64,000 nucleotides of DNA from Pelagomonas calceolata (taxonomy: Eukaryota; Sar; Pelagophyceae; Pelagomonadales; Pelagomonadaceae): assembly GCA_918797485.1 (NCBI GenBank), contig CAKKNE010000002.1, forward strand, positions 5,050,501 through 5,114,500. The letters run 5' to 3'. The notes beneath the pieces were generated by a model. That model did no database searches and was not told the DNA's origin. It saw only the letters and a program-made list of their open reading frames with translations. Positions within the stretch are counted from its first letter, which is position 1, and the number at the start of each line of letters is the position of its first letter. Shown one piece after another: positions 589 to 62,269 of the stretch. The position numbers were made by a program, and so were the translations under genes.

Positions 589-3500
589 TTACGATTTCTG
601 GCGCTTCGCGTTTTCCTCATCCTTCACAAGCTGCTTGGCGACGGCCTGCACGTCGGCTCGGCATTCAGGGTTGCGGCGGAGCAGGGAGGCGCGCGCGATG
701 GTCTTGGGCTCCATTCTCTGCCTCAGCACGTTATTAATGAAGGACGTGTCCCGGAAAGTGCGCTCGTTGCGCGCGGCCGCGGCGACGCCGCCGAGGTAGG
801 CCATGGCGGTGACAGCTATATAAGGCATCGCCCGACACGCACCGTCCATTTTGGGCTTCTTCTGGAAGGTCGCTAAATCGAATTTACCCCTCATCCAACC
901 CACCAAGGGATCAGCTGCTTTCCGTTCACCATCAATCGCCATGAGTGGGAATTCTTGCATGTTCAAAACGGGCTGGTTCAAGTACCTGTGAGAGAACGCG
1001 TTCCAGCGGAGCGAAGCCCTCACTCTCTCAAAATCCCGTAAAATACCGCGCCGTGGCCGACGCATCGACATCATTAGCCGCCCTCGTAGTAGCACTAGGC
1101 TTCAGCGTTGTCGGCTGTTGGCCCGCGTCGTCACCAGGAGCACCTCGCTGCCGCATCCTTGCAGCAAAACCAGACCGCATAGACGTCTGGCGCGGCGGCT
1201 GCACGGTCGGTGCAACCGGTGGCGGCGCAGGAGCTGTGGCCGGAGCCGGAGCCGCCGGGGCCCGGGTCTGCTGAAAAAAGTTATTAGTGATAGGTCGTGC
1301 GTTGTGGAGGGCTTCATCATTTTCAATTGCCTTTGTCAGTCGAACCTTCAAAGCAGCAACCGCATCGTCGCAAACAGTTTGCCAGTTGGTCGTGTACTGC
1401 GGATCGTCTATTTTATTCTGAAGGATCTGGAGGTCGTCGAAGAATTGACGCTTCAACCGCGGATCTACAATGATCGTTGCCGCCTCGACGGGCGACATCT
1501 CACCAAATACAAATTGCTTGAGCTTCTCCACCGTCGTGCTCAACATTGGTTTTGCGATGGCGTCGTCCTCGTATGATTCCAGCGGAACGTCTTCCTGTTC
1601 AAAGGGATTCACTACTTTAGGGCAGCTGATGCTGCTGCTAATCAATTCCTCGAGCACATACATCATCAAGACGCGCGCGACGCTCTTCGTATTATACCTA
1701 AGCGGGAAACCTTCACCGAACGTCGCGTGCCCCCTGAAGCCGCACCAGGACCTCTCCGGACCGCGGGTCGGCGCAGTGGCGGCGTGCGGTCGCGGCGACG
1801 GGTCGAGGCGCCGCCCCACGACTAGCGACGTGCCCCGGGCTCCGACGGAGACGCGCCGACCGAAACGCGGCCCAAACGCGCGTATCGCGGGGCTCACGCG
1901 ACCCCACCGACGCGGTTCGATTGGTGAAAGCTCAGTTTCTGACTCCGAGAACTACTCCTCGCCCTCGAGATATTTTTGAACGTCCATAATAGGCATAGCA
2001 ACTCCCAATATCTTGGCCATGGACCGATACTCAGAAATGGTAAAGTCCAGTTCCTCACAGCCTTCGTTAGCGCAGTACTCGTGTATGATAGGTCTCTGCT
2101 GAAAAATGGTCATGAGCATCAACGTCAAGGACCAGCATCTAGTCTTTCCATCAGTAACAAGTTTTTTGGCGACCATGCCGGGGTAGGGGATCCGTAGCCC
2201 TTCTTCGACGGCTAATTCATCGCTTTCTGCCGCACCACCTGCCTCTGCAAGGGCCACGAAGTCGTCGACGCCATCATTAGCTAGGAGAGCATACAATGCA
2301 TCAGTAATAAGAGTATCATTTTCATCAGTTGTGGGTTGGGCGTCGATGATTTCTGGATTCAGGCCCTCGGACAATTTGATGAGATCGTCCGCGGCCTTCT
2401 TCCACGCTTCGTTTGCATGCGTTGAGTTGCAGAATTTATTGGCTAGTCTGCGAGCTTTCTGGATGAATCGGCGGACACGTAGCTGTTCTTCAGTAAGATG
2501 CTTTTGAGCAACACATAATCCATGACATTGGACCTACGTTTCAGTGAATACGACCTTCGCGGGAAATTAACACACAAACTAAGTCGCCATCGACCGAAGG
2601 AGGCACTCGCTCGACTTCGGCACCGGATAGGACGAGGTCGAGATCATGAAGACGGCATGACTCGTGCCACAGACCGAGGCGGCGGGCCGATGCATGTACG
2701 CCACCGCCCGAGTCAGAAGTAAAGCTGAGAAAAGTAGCGCTAATGTCGGTCGTGTTAGAGTAGTTGTCGGACGGGATCTCGATGTCCGCAATTGGTATAC
2801 TAAGAAGCTCGTCGAAGTGATCTGCTGTGGCAACGGCAATGTTATGCCCGTTGTGCGAGCCCGGCAGGTGCACCAAGCCAGCCGTACGTGCGCAACGAAG
2901 ATCCTTGGTCCTAGTTGGATCAAATATAGGCTTAGCGCAGTGGTAGTCGAGGCCGAGGAAGGGATATTTACTTCTGGAAGTCCAGCAATCGGCAACGAGA
3001 TGTAAAAACGGCTGATTTGAATAAAACTTTTTCAACAGAGACAATTCGTCCCGCATGTTCTTGATCATCAGCTGCTCTTCTAGCTCGGCGGTCGGAGAGC
3101 TTGCGCCAACAGTTCTCGAGCACGGGCATCCCATGCTTCCATCGGATAATTTCAAAAAAATAGCGTCGAGCAACGGGTGATCCGCGGTCGTGTCGGCCAA
3201 ACCCGCCGAAGTAATCCAACGAGAAGTCATCACTTGAACAATAGCCTTGTCGAGCGGGTCGGCGGCATCTGCCTCGAGCGCGCGGCGGCGGTCCCGCCCA
3301 CCGTCCTTTCTCGGTTGTGCTACCTGTGTGGAAATCGATCGTTGAGCCAGGTCATCGCGAGAGAGGACTACGGGTCCCCACAAAAATCGACGCGACGGCC
3401 CGTCGGCACGGGTAACCGACGCTCGTGCATGGAGACGTCTTGTCGAGGGCTACCTAGCCCCATGCTGTCGACGGCAGCCTTCGTGTCGGTGACGCGACGT

Positions 3501-3986
3501 TTAGCCTCTCGAAATTTGACTTCTACACAGGACGTCTACAGATGGCCCGGTAATACCCATGGCGGCAAGTCTTTCAGGAGTATATCCCTTACACGCTTTT
3601 ACGTGTGACAAGAGATTGGACTGGCCGGATTTTGGAGAGCGCAATAACTTCAAACATCCATAGCAAACAGTGTCCGGCTTCGTATTTGGCTTCGCATCAG
3701 GTTGCGAAGCGGTAGGCATGTACTCATTCCCCTCGAAGATGCCCATGGCGCCTTTCGTAAATACATCTGGGACAACGGTTACTTGTTTGCGGTCGTAACG
3801 CCGGAAGAAGCCCGGTTCCGGTACATAACCTCTGACGACGCCGAGGTCGCCGTAATGTGCGTACTGTTGTGGGAGCTGCACCATTTTGCTGCCATCTTCG
3901 TCGTTGGTACTAATTATACCAGGACGATGTCTAATGCGCACATCTCTGACTACATTCGCGCCGCCGTCCTCGGCGGGCTCGGCCAT
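589..3986 (-). CDS. hAT-family transposase-like protein, five exons
   Basis: The proposed exons on the minus strand are 3986-3540, 3323-2616, 2533-1956, 1697-1047 and 985-589. They total 2781 bases (926 codons plus stop) with consistent phase and no internal stop. Exon 1 ends in a BED-type zinc finger (CYGC followed by HVKAC). Exon 2 carries hAT signatures: DCWTSRSKY, TSDSGGGVHAS and the CRLHDLDL motif. Exon 3 has the TRCW segment typical of the middle region. The last exon matches the C-terminal dimerisation domain (YLGGVAAAARNERTF, then LLRRNPE). The start is the ATG at 3986 (MAEPAEDGG). Each downstream exon begins with GT. The 1698-1955 and 2534-2615 boundaries are the least certain. hAT enzymes cut and paste DNA using terminal inverted repeats; none could be matched here. 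The gene could be a live element or a domesticated host gene. Confidence 0.75.
3324..3539 (-). mobile_element. introner-like intron inside the hAT-like gene
   Basis: The plus strand reads CTGTGTGGAAATC at 3324 and GACTTCTACACAG ending at 3530, which is a nearly complete inverted repeat matching the ends of the Mpv17 intron at 17091. Read on the minus strand, removal of 3324-3539 joins CCATCT to GTAGCACAACC in phase 0. The putative target duplications (GTAGACGT and GTAGCACA) share only their first four bases, so the insertion looks old. Its orientation is ambiguous because both ends are nearly the same. Confidence 0.65.
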
Positions 3987-7762: not shown

Positions 7763-8439
7763 ATGGCCGAGCTCGACGCCACGGCGGCGCGGAACCAGCC
7801 CTACGCGCCGCGGGGCACGAATGATGTGGATGCGATCCTGAAGCAGGACGACGCGGACGAGTCGCTGCAGCGGTACAAGGCGCAACTGCTCGGCGCGGCG
7901 GCGCAGGGCGACCGGGGCGACGCGTCGGACCCGCAGAAACCTGTGTGGAAATCAACGACGCGGTCACGGGGACAACGTCGCGTCGATGGCGTGGGGCGCC
8001 AGAAATGTTGTTTCCGCGCAGGCGGAAGCTAGTGGTCACAGAGTTCCGCGTCGTCTTCAACTCGCCCGCGCCGGACCAGGTCTTCCACCTCGACACGCGC
8101 GCCGGCAAGGACCACTTGAAAAAAACGGGCGTCGCCGTCAAGGAGGGCTCCGAGTACAAGTTCCGCCTGTCCTTCCGCGTGCAGCACGAGATCCTGCCGG
8201 GCCTGAAATACGTGAATCGATTGAAGCGCATGGGCATGAAGACGGCCGCCGACGAGCTCGTCATCGGGAGTTACGCGCCCCAGACCGAGCCGCACAGCTT
8301 CGAGTTCCCGCGGTACGACTGGCTCGAGGCGCCGAAAGGTATGATGTACCGCGGCGCGTACACCGCGAGCGACCGGTTCGTCGACGGCGACGGCCGGACG
8401 CACCTCGAGTACGACTACCCCGTCAAGGTGACGAAGTAA
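7763..8439 (+). CDS. Rho GDP-dissociation inhibitor (RhoGDI)
   Basis: Exons 7763-7932 and 8022-8439 give 195 residues, the usual RhoGDI length. RhoGDI extracts prenylated Rho/Rac GTPases from membranes and holds them GDP-bound in the cytosol. Residues 25-45 match the N-terminal regulatory arm (DESLQRYKAQLLG). After the splice the immunoglobulin-like domain follows in order: RKLVVTEFRVVF, VAVKEGSEYKFRLSFRVQHE, ILPGLKYV, KTAADELVIGSYAP, APKGMMYRGAY, and FVDGDGRTHLEYDYPVKV. The splice uses a GC donor: CC joined to GCGGAAG restores DPRKLVV exactly where family members read DPRK. It has the dyad promoter element upstream and the 3' motif at 8539 downstream. Confidence 0.93.
7933..8021 (+). mobile_element. 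introner-type GC-AG intron in RhoGDI
   Basis: The 89-bp intron is flanked by GCAGAAAC (start) and GCGGAAGC (first exon bases after it), a 6-of-8 direct repeat. Inside these, CTGTGTGGAAATC at the left and GTTTCCGCGCAG at the right form a partly decayed inverted repeat. The left end equals that of the Mpv17 intron. The interior contains GGTCACGGGG and GTCGCGTCGATGGCGT, shared with the intron at 14556. Confidence 0.8.
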
Positions 8440-11998: not shown

Positions 11999-12033
11999 TG
12001 CTAGCTATCGCACTAATCGTTTGTCTGATCTTC

Positions 12034-12080
12034 GGGCGCCCCCCGCCATCGACGCGACGTTTTCCCCGAGGCGTCGCGTC
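12034..12080 (-). mobile_element. fragment of the second introner family, reverse orientation
   Basis: The segment GGGCGCCCCCCGCCATCGAC followed by GCGACGTTTTCCCCG is the reverse complement of the interior of the introns at 7933 and 14556 (CACGGGGAAGACGTCGCGTC then GATGGCGTGGGGCGCC). It sits between two plus-strand genes, so it is either in a 5'-UTR or an intergenic insertion. Confidence 0.55.
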
Positions 12081-12261
12081 GGCTCGATGCGTCCGTACGT
12101 GACGGGTTTTCCCCGCCAATCGCGCTTTTGGCCTGCCTGCTCTGATCCTGCTCAAGCTCACAGGCTTCGTAGGACGACTCGGACACAGGGCCCACTTGGA
12201 CGTCGAGAAATCGCTCAAACTCGCGGCGAGACATACAAAAAATCCATATTGGCTGGGTTGG

Positions 12262-13310: not shown

Positions 13311-15559
13311 ATGGCCGGCGACACCAAGAAAAAGGCCCAGCAAAAAGTCAAAGACTCGGCGACGGGCGTCGAGGTCGCGGTCCCGCAGCCCCCAAAAAGA
13401 CTCAGCGCGTACCAGATCTTCGTCCAGCAGCAGCGCGACGCCACGAAGGCCGCGAATCCCGCGGCGAATTCCCAGGAAATTCTCGGCATCCTGGCCAAGG
13501 CCTGGAACGGCACCGGTGCCGATGAGCGCGCCAAACTTGAGAAGGATGCCGACGAAGACCTCGAAACTAAGAAAAAGATGTGGGCCGTGGGCGAGGATAT
13601 CCGCGAGGCCGAAAGATTACGGGTCTGCAAGGCCTTGGATATGAGTGATAAGACGACCTGGGCGTCGCTCTACGAGAAGGTCGTCGAACGGAACGAAAAA
13701 CTCGGAAGGCCCGCGTCGCCTCGAAGTTCAAAATCCACGTATAAACCGCCCCCAAAGCCTGATGCGGCCTCGATCAAGAAGTCGCGGCAGTGGGCCACGG
13801 CGTTTCAAGGCCAAACGAGAAGGAAAGCCGTGTTATCCGGTTTAGATGCCATCGCAGCACTATCCTCGGATCAAGCGAACTTCGACCAGTTCGGCAACGA
13901 CGCGATCCAGTGTTTTTACGATGTTGCTAGAGCCACGGAGGACCCCGTGCGGGCGAACGCGCTGATGTTCGTCGAACAATTAGCTCATAAATGGCGCCAC
14001 CGCATCTTGAGCAGGGGCTGGCGGTCGTCGGGTCGGCCGACGCCCCAGCAAATCCTGGAGACCATTGTGGGGTTGTACTGTCTGGAACGAGTGGGTGTTT
14101 CTGCCCCGAAGCTCAAAGAGGACGTCGTTCATGCTGTCACATTAACTGGACCTGACGCCGATGATTCTCTCAAACCTTATAGTTGTAAGGACTATTTTGG
14201 GTGGGACCCTGTCCATGACGCGACCGTTCCGGAAGGCGTTGCTGAGGTGTTGTCCGGCGAGGCGGTTACGGTGTACCGGACGCTATGTAACTCCTTGATA
14301 CACGCCTTCTATGCCGAAAGAGCCTCGATAAATATAGGGTGCGGCTACGCCGATGTCCTTGCGAAAGTAGCGACGTTACGACCATATAAATCGCACGGCG
14401 AGCTGCCCTGGGAGTCGTATGTGGATCAAGCCTACCTGATCACGCACGTCGTTTTTACGTTAAACAACTGGGGCGAGCTCGCTCTGGAGCCGGAGTTGCT
14501 GCCGCACGAGCATTTGTTTATCCGGGAGAATTTGGGAGTGGCGGTCCGAGGCTCTGTGCGGAGATCAACGAGTGAGTGAGTTACTTCCACGCCATCGAGC
14601 CGACGCCGTCACGGGGAAGACGTCGCGTCGATGGCGTAGACCCTCCACGCCATCGAGCAGACGCAGTCACAGAGACACCATCGCGTCGATGGCTGGGGCG
14701 TCGATGGCGTGGGGCGCCCGAACTGACGCGCGCGGCGACGCCGTCGACGCGGCAGTTTCGCGACGGCGTCCGTCCCACGCAGGTGCGCGAGCGCGACGCC
14801 CACCTCGTCGGCGAGTACGTGGAGTGTCTAAGGGCGTTTGGTTCTGACGACTCGGACCCTCTCATTCAGCTGGGCATGACGTTTTTGCTGCGGGCGCAGG
14901 ATCCAAACACGCACCGCTGGGACGTCGGTGGCGACGCGTACACGTCGTACCACGCGACGATGGTCGCCTGCCAAGCGTTACTTGTGCATACGCATCGGGG
15001 CTACGGGCCCGGTCTCCCTTCGTGCGTCGCGGTCCTGGAGAAGTGGCACGCGGCCGAACGACCGGACGACGTGCGAGAAAACCCTGATATAGCATTACGG
15101 AAGCGCGTCGACGATAAAGCAAGGAAACCCCCGAAGAAGGAATCGAATGAAGAGAAGCCGGCGTCGCCGCGGCCCCAGAAGCCGGCCGCGGAGCCGAAGA
15201 AGCGGCCCGCGGCGCCCTCTGACCAGAAGAAGCGTCCCGCCTCGCCCGACAAAAGTGCGAAGCCCCCGCCACAAAAGAAGAAGAAGAAGGTCCCCCAGAA
15301 GCTCAGCAAGGAGGATATTGCTGCCGTCGAGGCCAAGATCCAGGAGGCGGTCGCGGGCCAGGCCTGGCCCGTCGCGTCGAAGCTTCTGAAAAATCTCGCG
15401 GAGAGCGACGTCTCCGTGGACCTGCTGAAGACGACGACGGTCGGCAAGACGGTCGCTGCCTTAAAAAAGGCCGCGGACGCGAAATTGGTGATGGCGGCCA
15501 AAGGCTTGGTGGCGCGGTGGAAGCAGATGGTGCGCGACGCGGACGCGGCGTCGTCGTAA
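13311..15559 (+). CDS. HMG-box protein with C-terminal TFIIS-N (LW) domain, two exons
   Basis: Exons 13311-14555 and 14783-15559 give about 673 residues. An HMG box lies at about 25-90 (PPKRLSAYQIFVQQQRDATK followed by the helix ending LETKKKMW). A 280-residue helical middle region has no recognisable family. The C-terminal third starts with a Lys/Pro-rich disordered stretch (PQKKKKKVPQKL) and ends in a TFIIS N-terminal-type helical bundle (LLKNLAESDVSVDLLKTTTV, then GKTVAALKK and LVARWKQMV). HMG boxes bend DNA and TFIIS-N domains bind elongation or Mediator partners, so a chromatin-linked transcription role is inferred. The donor is set by phase; GTGCGG at 14556 matches the GTGCGC at the acceptor, but GTCCGA at 14544 or GTGGCG at 14538 also keep the frame. 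Confidence 0.75.
14556..14782 (+). mobile_element. hairpin-rich introner-type intron in the HMG-box gene
   Basis: The 227-bp intron contains two inverted-repeat units: CCACGCCATCGAGC then GACGTCGCGTCGATGGCGT, and CCACGCCATCGAGC then ATCGCGTCGATGGC, followed by a third TCGATGGCGTGGGGCGCC. The latter block also occurs in the RhoGDI intron and, reversed, at 12034. Flanks GTGCGGAG and GTGCGCGA are a weak direct repeat (5 of 8). Confidence 0.65.
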
Positions 15560-16098: not shown

Positions 16099-17362
16099 AT
16101 GGCAGTCCTGCGCCACCTCGTGGCCGCGGCGGCCGTAACCAGCGCCCTCGTGACGCCGGTAGCCAGGCCGCGGCCGCGCACGCGACGGCGCGTCATCGAG
16201 GAGCCGCGCGTTGACGACGAGCCGCGCGTCGAGTACGACAACGAAGACGGGCTAGTGTGCGTGATCGACGAGAACGGCTTCAAGAGCTGCGCGCCCGCCG
16301 GGCCGGGCCTGGAATGGTACGAGGACGAGCTCGTGAGCAACGAGAAGAAACTAGAAGCCGTAGAGGCGAAATTGGAAACGCTCAAAGCCGAGAAGAAATT
16401 ACTCGTGGCGAAACAGAAGGAGCTCACGAGCGTCTACGACGAGCTCCGGTTCGAGGTACGGAATGCGGGGTTAAATGGGCCCATACTGGCCTTCGTCCTT
16501 TGTGCCGCGCTCGTCGCCCTGCTCTGGAAGGACTTGTTCATCGTGATATCCCTCTACGAGAACGACGCTTACATGGAGGCCGACTGGCTGCCCGAGAGTC
16601 TCCAATTGTTCGGTCGCCTACCGATGGATTTCCTCCGCGACTACACGGCTGCCGCCGTTGCGATGCCCGTATTGACCAAGGCGGCCACCTCCTGCGTGTC
16701 TTATCTAGGAGGAGATCTGACGGCGCAAGCAGTGGAAGGGCGTCGAAGGGTCGGCTTGCTCGACCTACCGCGCGCGGCGAGGAACGGTTTACTGGGATTC
16801 TTCCTGCACGGGCCGCTCCTGCACTTCTGGATCTTATTCCTAGAGGGCCCATTTGCAAAACTTTTGATGGGGAGCGGCCTGACTGAAGGGCCATTGCTGC
16901 TCGTAGCTAAAGTTGCCCTTGATCAGACGTTGTTTGCGGTCACGATCAACCTCGCGTACGCCTTCATCGACGGGATCCTGTCGGACCAGAGCCCGTCGGA
17001 CGCGTGGCGGCGGTCGAGGCAGGTCTTGGTGCCCAGCGTAGTGCAGTCCTGGCGCTTCTGGCCCCTCGTGCACCTGATATCGTACTCACCGTTGATACCT
17101 GTGTGGAAAGCAACCAGTGCGTCGGGAGCACGACGATTCAGCACGAACGCGCCGTAAAATTTGATTTCCACACAGGTTGATACCCGTCGACCTCAAGGTG
17201 CTGTGGATAGACGTCATGGAAATCGTCTGGGTCGCGATCCTCTCCGCCACGGTCAATTCGGCTGGAGGAGACGACGATGATGGCGAGGGCCCGCGGGTGC
17301 CCTGGGGCGAGGGTCGGTGGGCGGAGCCGCTCGTCGACGAGGGGGGAGCAGTAAGTCGATAA
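16099..17362 (+). CDS. Mpv17/PMP22-family membrane protein with coiled-coil N-terminus, two exons
   Basis: Exons 16099-17090 and 17176-17362 encode 392 residues. The C-terminal 200 residues match the Mpv17/PMP22 family of organelle inner-membrane channels: LGGDLTAQAVEG, the helical pairs after FFLHGPLLHFWI, VALDQTLFAVTINLAY, and, after the splice, WRFWPLVHLISYSPLIPVDL and the final W helix ending AILSATVNS. The N-terminus has a signal-like segment, an acidic stretch, a coiled coil (about 75-125, rich in KLEAVEAKLETLKAEKK) and an extra helix, making it about twice the usual length. It may be plastid or mitochondrial. The splice restores the family motif exactly. The stop lies only four bases from the stop of the convergent gene at 17367. 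Confidence 0.85.
17091..17175 (+). mobile_element. introner with intact target duplication and inverted repeats
   Basis: The intron starts at the first GTTGATAC and ends before the second GTTGATAC, a perfect 8-base direct repeat. Between them is a 77-base element with ends CTGTGTGGAAA and TTTCCACACAG, an exact 11-base inverted repeat that extends to about 15 of 16 bases. The donor GT is in the duplicated target; the acceptor AG is the end of the element. Removing the intron restores the uninterrupted target and reading frame. Confidence 0.92.
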
Positions 17363-60822: not shown

Positions 60823-62269
60823 CTAGTAGTGATCGAGGTCAATTTCGATTCGCCCCACGACCGTGGCGAAGTTTGGGGGGAGGTCGAGCAAACGAATGCC
60901 TCGCGCCTTGTATTTCTCCTGCCGGAGGAATAGTTTGGCGAACCAGTTGTGGTGCATCCTCGGCGGGGGTAAATAGCCACTTGGCTCATATGTAAATTCC
61001 GCGCTCCACTTCGGCTGCCCTTCCCGCGGCGTCTCGAAGACATGGCATATCGCATCCCACGTTTCCTTCAAAGTATATAAATTTCGTGGGTTGTCAAAAT
61101 GTATTCTCGTAGGTGGGTTCTCCAGCAACTTGTCCGCGAACGCGCTCATCAGCTCGAGCCGCCGTGGGTCCATGCGCGTCTCGCTTCGGAACGAGCGGTG
61201 CGGATCCGGGATGCGAAAAACGCGGCCGTCCCAACTTGCTTTTGAGATGTTGAGGTCACATGATGCGAGCAGGGTCCGGGCATCCGCCACGTTGGTGTTC
61301 GCGATCACGAGGTCGATGATCTTTTCTTCATCAAGCCGCCGGTCGTAAGAGAAGGCGTCCGTGTCCGCCGCGGCTCGGATGCGGTACTCCGGCGCGTTCC
61401 AATCTTCAATGAACCCATAGGCCCCTTCTGATTGAAGGCCATCAAAGGATGCGTTGCGTGTGTCCATGTCGCGAGTCGCGCCCGAGGCCCACGCGGTCGC
61501 GTCGGCTAGCGAAAATTCTTCACGGTCAGAGTCATCAGAGTCATATTCGTCGAAACAATAGCCTTCTTCAGGCGTCAGCGAGTAGCCCTCCGTGTGATGG
61601 ACGCGACCTGTGCGCAAATCAATCAGTGAGTCGCGTGCACCGATAATTCTTCACAATGCGACGCGATGCGACAATTTGATTTATGCACAGGACGTGACAC
61701 TCCATCGCTTTTCCCATGAGGTCTGCGCCGAGGTCGAGATACATGCAATTGGGACCGCATTGCACCGTCGACAGCGTCAGGCCCCTGCCGCAGAGTCGCG
61801 AGCGCACCCCGGGCGCCGCCGCGGCAGTCGTGAAGATATCAACGTCTATCTTGTCCTTGTAATACTCAGAGTCAGGGTCCATTTCGACACGGCGTCTCGC
61901 GCCTGGGTACTCATCACCCGTCCACACCGTACCCAGCACGCACTGCGCCATCGTCGACCCGGCGATCAGCGCGCCTGGCCGCCCGTCCGCGTCCACCAGC
62001 GCCTTGAAATCGACGGCCTCCGGCGAGACGCCGCGTGCCTTGAGTACGCGTGCGAGACTGCTTTCCAGCGACACGCGCAGCGCCCGCGTCGCGCGCGGGA
62101 CGTCGTTTTCCTTGACGTGGAATGACTTCGCCGTCAGACAGAGCGCGTACGTCTGCGGCGGCCTCAGAAACCCTGCCAGTGTGCGGAGGCAGTGCGCCAT
62201 GGTGCCGGCGGGGGCGGAGTGGTACTTTTGGGCATAGCTGGCACAGGTGCGCCTCGGACGGCGCGCCAT
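60823..62269 (-). CDS. nucleotidyltransferase-fold-like protein of a giant-virus/protist family, two exons
   Basis: Exons 62269-61663 and 61607-60823 encode 463 residues. The N-terminus has a short helical F-box-like stretch (LRTLAGFLRPPQTYALCLTA). Then GALIAGSTMAQCVLG followed by KIDVDIF gives the G-S ... D-x-D pattern of minimal nucleotidyltransferases. After an acidic insert come KIIDLVIANTNVADARTLLA, SCDLNISKASWDG and a late basic helix region. Proteins with this order (GS/GG, DxD, then an IDLI strand and FDLxI motif) are common in nucleocytoplasmic large DNA viruses and some protists; the function is not known. The 55-bp intron (61608-61662) has donor GTCGCATT and first exon bases GTCGCGTC, a 6-of-8 direct repeat. 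Family placement is from motif memory. Confidence 0.6.

Follow-up and report, generated by a model that had tools for sequence, protein, structure and literature searches.

A short introner, probably removed by splicing, in an Mpv17-family gene of Pelagomonas calceolata

The origin of introns is a long-standing question. Huff, Zilberman and Roy reportedly showed in 2016 that the introners of Aureococcus anophagefferens are MITE-like; the element described here shares with them a pelagophyte host, the two being likened by description and not by sequence. The Pelagomonas calceolata genome consists of 32.4 Mb in six nuclear contigs plus the plastid and the mitochondrion, its introners are already in print in one sentence, and its intron lengths peak at ~210 bp, the length typical of A. 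anophagefferens introners (PMC9481584). A TSD (target-site duplication) of 8 bp and the 203-bp long class reported below add up to 211 bp, which fits this peak, and the published introners very likely belong to the same family as our element. However, the consulted parts of that paper give no terminal inverted repeat (TIR), TSD, donor rule, short class or allele comparison, and our 85-bp intron represents a short class absent from their account of ~210-bp introners. Introners with the donor in the TSD and the acceptor in the element have already been published from other species (Gozashti et al. 2022, PMC9860276). The TSD/TIR families in the consulted parts of that work have a 4-bp TSD, in contrast to 8 bp here, and its main text contains no mention of Pelagomonas (search string 'pelago'). 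For Micromonas introner elements, presence and absence were followed in marine metagenomes, with 511 unique novel insertions (PMC3879977, as far as consulted), and presence and absence in metagenomic sequences are likewise visible for the present family. Micromonas is, however, a green alga with different elements, for which the same parts of that paper lean towards a mechanism linked with transcription and splicing.

The window, that is, the whole stretch analysed, comprised 64 kb (C2:5050501-5114500; positions below are counted within it), and the genome searched comprised 32,445,274 bp in 8 contigs. According to translation and Pfam (PF04117), exon 1 of an Mpv17/PMP22-family gene occupies 16099-17090 on the forward strand, and exon 2, including the stop codon TAA at 17360-17362, was placed by translation at 17176-17362 on the same strand. 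The predicted 85-bp intron between them (17091-17175) consists of one TSD copy plus an element. The 8-bp direct repeat GTTGATAC is located at 17091-17098, with its first two bases (17091-17092) as the putative GT donor by the rule over copies given below, and again at 17176-17183, the start of exon 2. The two copies enclose a 77-bp element (17099-17175), delimited by its structure, by family counts and by alignment to a long copy, whose inverted ends are perfect over 11 bp. The perfect 8-base repeat on both sides of a 77-base element, as described in an earlier note on this DNA, proved correct base for base. The 11-base inverted ends of that note are present at their positions, but comparison within the family gives a TIR of 15 bp (CTGTGTGGAAATCAA / TTGATTTCCACACAG) with one mismatch here, a substitution at position 12 of the 5′ end. 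The 5′ TIR thus spans 17099-17113 and the 3′ TIR, TTGATTTCCACACAG, spans 17161-17175. The latter reads TTGAT (17161-17165), then pyrimidines, then a CACAG acceptor; TTGAT is branch-point-like and may act as the branch point. When the window was searched for 8-bp direct repeats separated by 50-600 bp and enclosing inverted ends of at least 6 exact bases or at least 10 of 12 matching, three structures were found, and the two besides this one had just 6 and 3 exact terminal bases.

Removal of 17091-17175 joins SYSP to LIPVDLKVLW in frame and gives a predicted Mpv17-family product of 392 amino acids, whereas retention of the 85 bases leads to a stop codon at 17155-17157. The exon junction sits within the Mpv17_PMP22 domain, which scores 44.7 bits (full match) in the spliced form and 24.8 bits in the unspliced form, against a cut-off of 27. 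Splicing would therefore rebuild the ancestral exon and the Mpv17-family motif, as the earlier note had it, at the level of reading frame and domain. The 85 bp are most probably (about 0.93) an introner, a MITE-like non-autonomous DNA transposon which entered the Mpv17-family gene, duplicated an 8-bp target and is removed by the spliceosome. The earlier note had read them in the same way, and this reading now draws on a multi-copy family, a donor rule followed by 42/42 copies, the restored Pfam domain, empty and filled alleles, and the repetition of the allele pattern in a third gene.

A genome search for further copies of the 77-base element, suggested with the earlier reading, uncovered a family of hundreds. 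Exact pairs of the 10-base TIR matched 93 times at a spacing of 45-75 bp and 229 times at 160-190 bp, and the exact 15-mer TIR was found at 790+772 sites; all reversed controls gave 0 matches. The best alignment of the element among the studied copies of 195-206 bp was to a 202-bp copy (L032), with a single 125-bp internal gap and 3 mismatches in 77 bases, and the element is therefore most plausibly a copy shortened by an internal deletion, in a family with a ~203-bp long class. The internal deletion and the 15-bp TIR with its one mismatch correct the earlier note. TIR pairings were drawn from 59 sequences, namely the window and 58 loci, every locus having been picked via the element itself. 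Among 72 distinct pairings, a few of them due to chance or overlap, 35 had a perfect 8-bp TSD and 13 had a TSD with one mismatch. Many similar introns thus occur at non-homologous positions, their intron status being judged from coding flanks.

The window contains further traces of the family. An 81-bp copy at 7941-8021, flanked by GCAGAAAC and GCGGAAGC with 2 mismatches, appears to be an older introner whose TSD has slightly decayed. A diverged TIR pair of the family spans 207 bp at 3324-3530, without a matching 8-bp repeat; together with fragments of the same family at 12031-12092, 14554-14725 and 61608-61654 it seems to represent decaying copies.

Splice sites were compared across 47 copies having a TSD with at most one mismatch and enough flanking sequence. 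The coding strand was picked from the codon usage of the joined flanks, blind to the letters of the TSD, and a score of at least 5 was taken as coding (42/47). In all 42 copies with coding flanks the TSD on the coding strand began with GT (28) or GC (14), the background for GY being 0.166. At the opposite TSD end GY was present in 14/42, which is above the 0.166 background (p 0.006). The five copies scoring below 5 each had GY at one end; in two of these five it lay on the strand that had not been chosen. Among the copies listed, GY was found at one end at least in 46/46 long copies (contig C1; 229 overall) and 49/50 short copies (93 overall), and at both ends in 11/46 long and 13/50 short copies, near the 0.166 background. 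Over the whole genome the two ends counted 144+149 GY in 229 long pairs and 59+63 in 93 short pairs. GC donors account for ~1% in most eukaryotes, and the 14/42 introner copies that have them here represent a far higher share.

Elements point in either direction with respect to the gene, one end being 3′ in 25 copies and the other end in 12, with 5 unsorted. Read outwards, either TIR gives TTGAT, pyrimidines and CACAG, and TTGATTTCCACACAG was unchanged at the acceptor in 29/42 copies. Excision left 38 of the 42 copies with coding flanks free of stop codons, and 3/42 would, if retained, keep the frame and add no stop. These results bear on the first alternative, an unspliced MITE which truncates the Mpv17 protein at the stop codon of 17155-17157 and makes the gene a partial loss-of-function allele. 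The truncated frame does fall just short of the Pfam cut-off, at the 24.8 bits given above, but an element left unspliced should follow no such strand rule as GT or GC in 42/42 TSDs against a background of 0.166, and 38/42 excisions leave no stop. The donors also speak for it. Scored against the general U1-pairing consensus, donors matched 1.90 of 9 positions beyond GY (n=42), compared with 1.78 at GY sites of the same exons (p 0.25). Such a lack of U1 complementarity beyond GY is unusual for an efficiently spliced intron and counts against the introner reading. Two U1 snRNA matches were found, at G000:C1:553941-554112 and C1:5464782-5464959, both under the Rfam cut-off, and the former has a canonical 5′ end, ATACTTACCTG (84 bases examined). 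Taking both sides together, we consider the unspliced MITE improbable. A 125-base piece with the intron folds with its TIRs paired, at an unexceptional energy (z −1.54; 14/200 shuffles folded at least as well).

Alleles of the Mpv17-family gene were sought in public protein records, from which alone they are known here. The search found 39 relatives of the spliced protein; 13 were examined singly and 14 were aligned with the query. Record P0004 carries an introner at the site of the window's element (SPLMPVWKSTS, where the unspliced frame of the window reads SPLIPVWKATS). Record P0002 passes this site uninterrupted and enters an introner 28 residues further on (TVNS followed by CVEIN); its flanks, back-translated with degenerate codes, jointly fit one 8-bp TSD, GTTAATTC, starting with GT. 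In P0003 the site is empty and an introner of the long class follows a few codons later (E 1.7e-30), and P0007 has an upstream introner after RNGLL (E 4.6e-8). Introner matches in the tails are weak for P0002 (E 8e-6) and P0004 (E 3e-4), given that a reversed-introner control matched 4/8 tails, with its best E of 0.002 on P0002, and for these two records the argument depends on the TIR itself, as it is read out in the protein. P0006 and P0017 end early from causes that are different or unclear, the introner match of P0017 (0.010) being no better than its control (0.005).

P0001 and P0005 are uninterrupted at the site and may be spliced; part of P0005 is also out of frame. Since read-through records (P0001, P0005, P0040, P0064-P0070, P0072, P0088) may stem from spliced transcripts or spliced gene models, only records that enter an introner were counted as unspliced. 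Among five sequences, the window, P0002, P0003, P0004 and P0007, introners occupy four different positions, with empty sites alongside. The same intron in distant relatives, which the earlier note had named as an observation that would refute its reading, was not seen in the 9 distant rows among the 14 aligned, all of which read through the site; this is a weak test, because some rows come from transcripts or unknown gene callers. Related wild sequences are thus without the introner or have a copy elsewhere, so that intron birth looks recent or ongoing. The earlier suggestion of recent or ongoing intron gain is supported by a focal site both empty and filled and by introners at three other positions in these protein records, and the family would have been mobile recently enough for introner positions to differ between wild alleles.

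Two further genes were compared in the same way. In a phosphomannomutase-like gene (by Pfam; locus L014), 4 of 24 listed records were examined. P0040 reads through the introner site and P0043 begins at the first Met past it, as a gene caller would have it if the intron were present; this gene indirectly fits a pattern of introner presence and absence. In a third gene (locus L035), 23 of 38 listed records were examined. Introner sequence at the reference site was found in eight of the 23 (P0074, P0076, P0079, P0081, P0082, P0084, P0086 and P0100), the longest contigs behind P0086 and P0100 being 431 and 147 kb. Nine of the 23 read through the reference site, and P0101 reads through it with an introner at another site. 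P0091, P0092, P0098 and P0099 break off, with the cause unexplained. Among 27 protein ends tested, 9 matched introners at E ≤0.01 and 1 matched the reversed control; for P0084 the introner match was 1.6e-5 and the control match 3.6e-4. To judge from these records, the third gene appears to repeat the allele pattern of the Mpv17-family gene. P0071 has a short in-frame introner at the reference site, roughly 52 bp long as estimated from 20 extra residues, which would keep the frame if retained and may show how an intron could turn into a coding insertion.

The introner reading implies the following course of events. A transposase acting in trans would make a staggered cut at an 8-bp target, consistent with the observed TSD. 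The upstream target copy would provide the 5′ splice site wherever its first two bases on the coding strand are GT or GC, as the rule over copies shows. The 3′ splice site would come from the end of the element, where the 15-bp TIR read outwards, TTGATTTCCACACAG, offers a branch-point-like YTRAY, a pyrimidine run and CAG; because each TIR read outwards resembles such a 3′ splice-site module, either orientation should work. Splicing would then take out one target copy and the element and restore the ancestral coding sequence, as seen at the level of frame and domain. Selection would probably remove insertions that lack a sense-strand donor.

Spread by reverse splicing of RNA in place of DNA transposition is less probable still than an unspliced MITE. 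It would agree with the position of 42/47 tested copies, which have coding flanks and a sense-strand donor, and it has a parallel in Micromonas, whose introner elements are described in the consulted parts of one paper as confined to transcribed regions, in sense, with mobility tied to transcription and splicing (PMC3879977). The 8-bp TSDs, the 15-bp TIRs, both orientations and a deleted form keeping both ends are, however, marks of DNA transposition. An ordinary old intron with repeat-like ends by chance or convergence would share the GT-AG borders and the plausible length but is the least credible alternative, in view of hundreds of related genome copies (controls 0), the perfect TSD and alleles without the element.

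Returning to the introner reading, its new aspects are an unusually complete series of alleles with and without the introner, a class of short copies with a deletion, and donors without a U1 signal. Also new would be GY-only donors in the presence of a canonical U1, and two TIRs that each seem to hold a complete 3′ splice-site-like module. A literature search joining introners with splice donor and snRNA found nothing. GY-only donors beside a canonical U1 5′ end raise a testable question, how the spliceosome recognizes new introns. One wider model is offered tentatively, at rather less than even odds. An introner might demand almost nothing of its target, so that any 8-bp sense-strand site starting with GT or GC could serve as a working donor, U1 complementarity beyond these two bases being dispensable; the palindromic TIRs might provide a 3′ module in both directions and may pair as a hairpin that puts a weak donor beside the acceptor; and the family would then be blind to orientation and segregating in wild populations. 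With four introner positions among five sequences and empty sites alongside, a gene of ~1.2 kb, very likely from an abundant ocean alga, could make it possible to measure what brand-new introns cost, how efficiently they are spliced and what becomes of them.

In viral sequences the long TIR pair and two internal family patterns gave 0 matches each. The short TIR pair matched one viral contig (L060); this match is AT-rich inside and unlike the family over 140 bases examined, and was taken as chance. Searches of the genome for hAT, KDZ, P-element-like and MULE transposases revealed no transposase gene with the family TIRs. MULE gave 0 genome matches with 3 controls matched; KDZ and P-element-like families gave no genome match, which decides nothing since the same searches matched no control genome. 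The hAT C-terminal domain had one genome match, in an open frame of 721 amino acids at C4:4499982 (L059 and L061). No TIR with fewer than 2 mismatches in 10 was found in the surrounding 6.1 kb, which on one side reach only ~1.4 kb past the frame, and the frame is possibly domesticated or a remnant of another element.

A hAT origin was considered from the look of GTTGATAC (GT....AC). hAT elements show a symmetric target preference such as nTnnnnAn, and their TIR consensus starts with YARNG. The family has an 8-bp TSD, as expected of hAT, but its TIR starts with CTGTG, with T as the second base. The idea was not kept, since the copies listed had GY at both ends about as often as the background and the TIR departs from the hAT consensus. 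In the smaller count, however, 14/42 opposite ends had GY, which is above background (p 0.006). The TIR of a variant copy (L007) starts with CAGTG, and a literature search on introners and hAT yielded a fungal genome paper.
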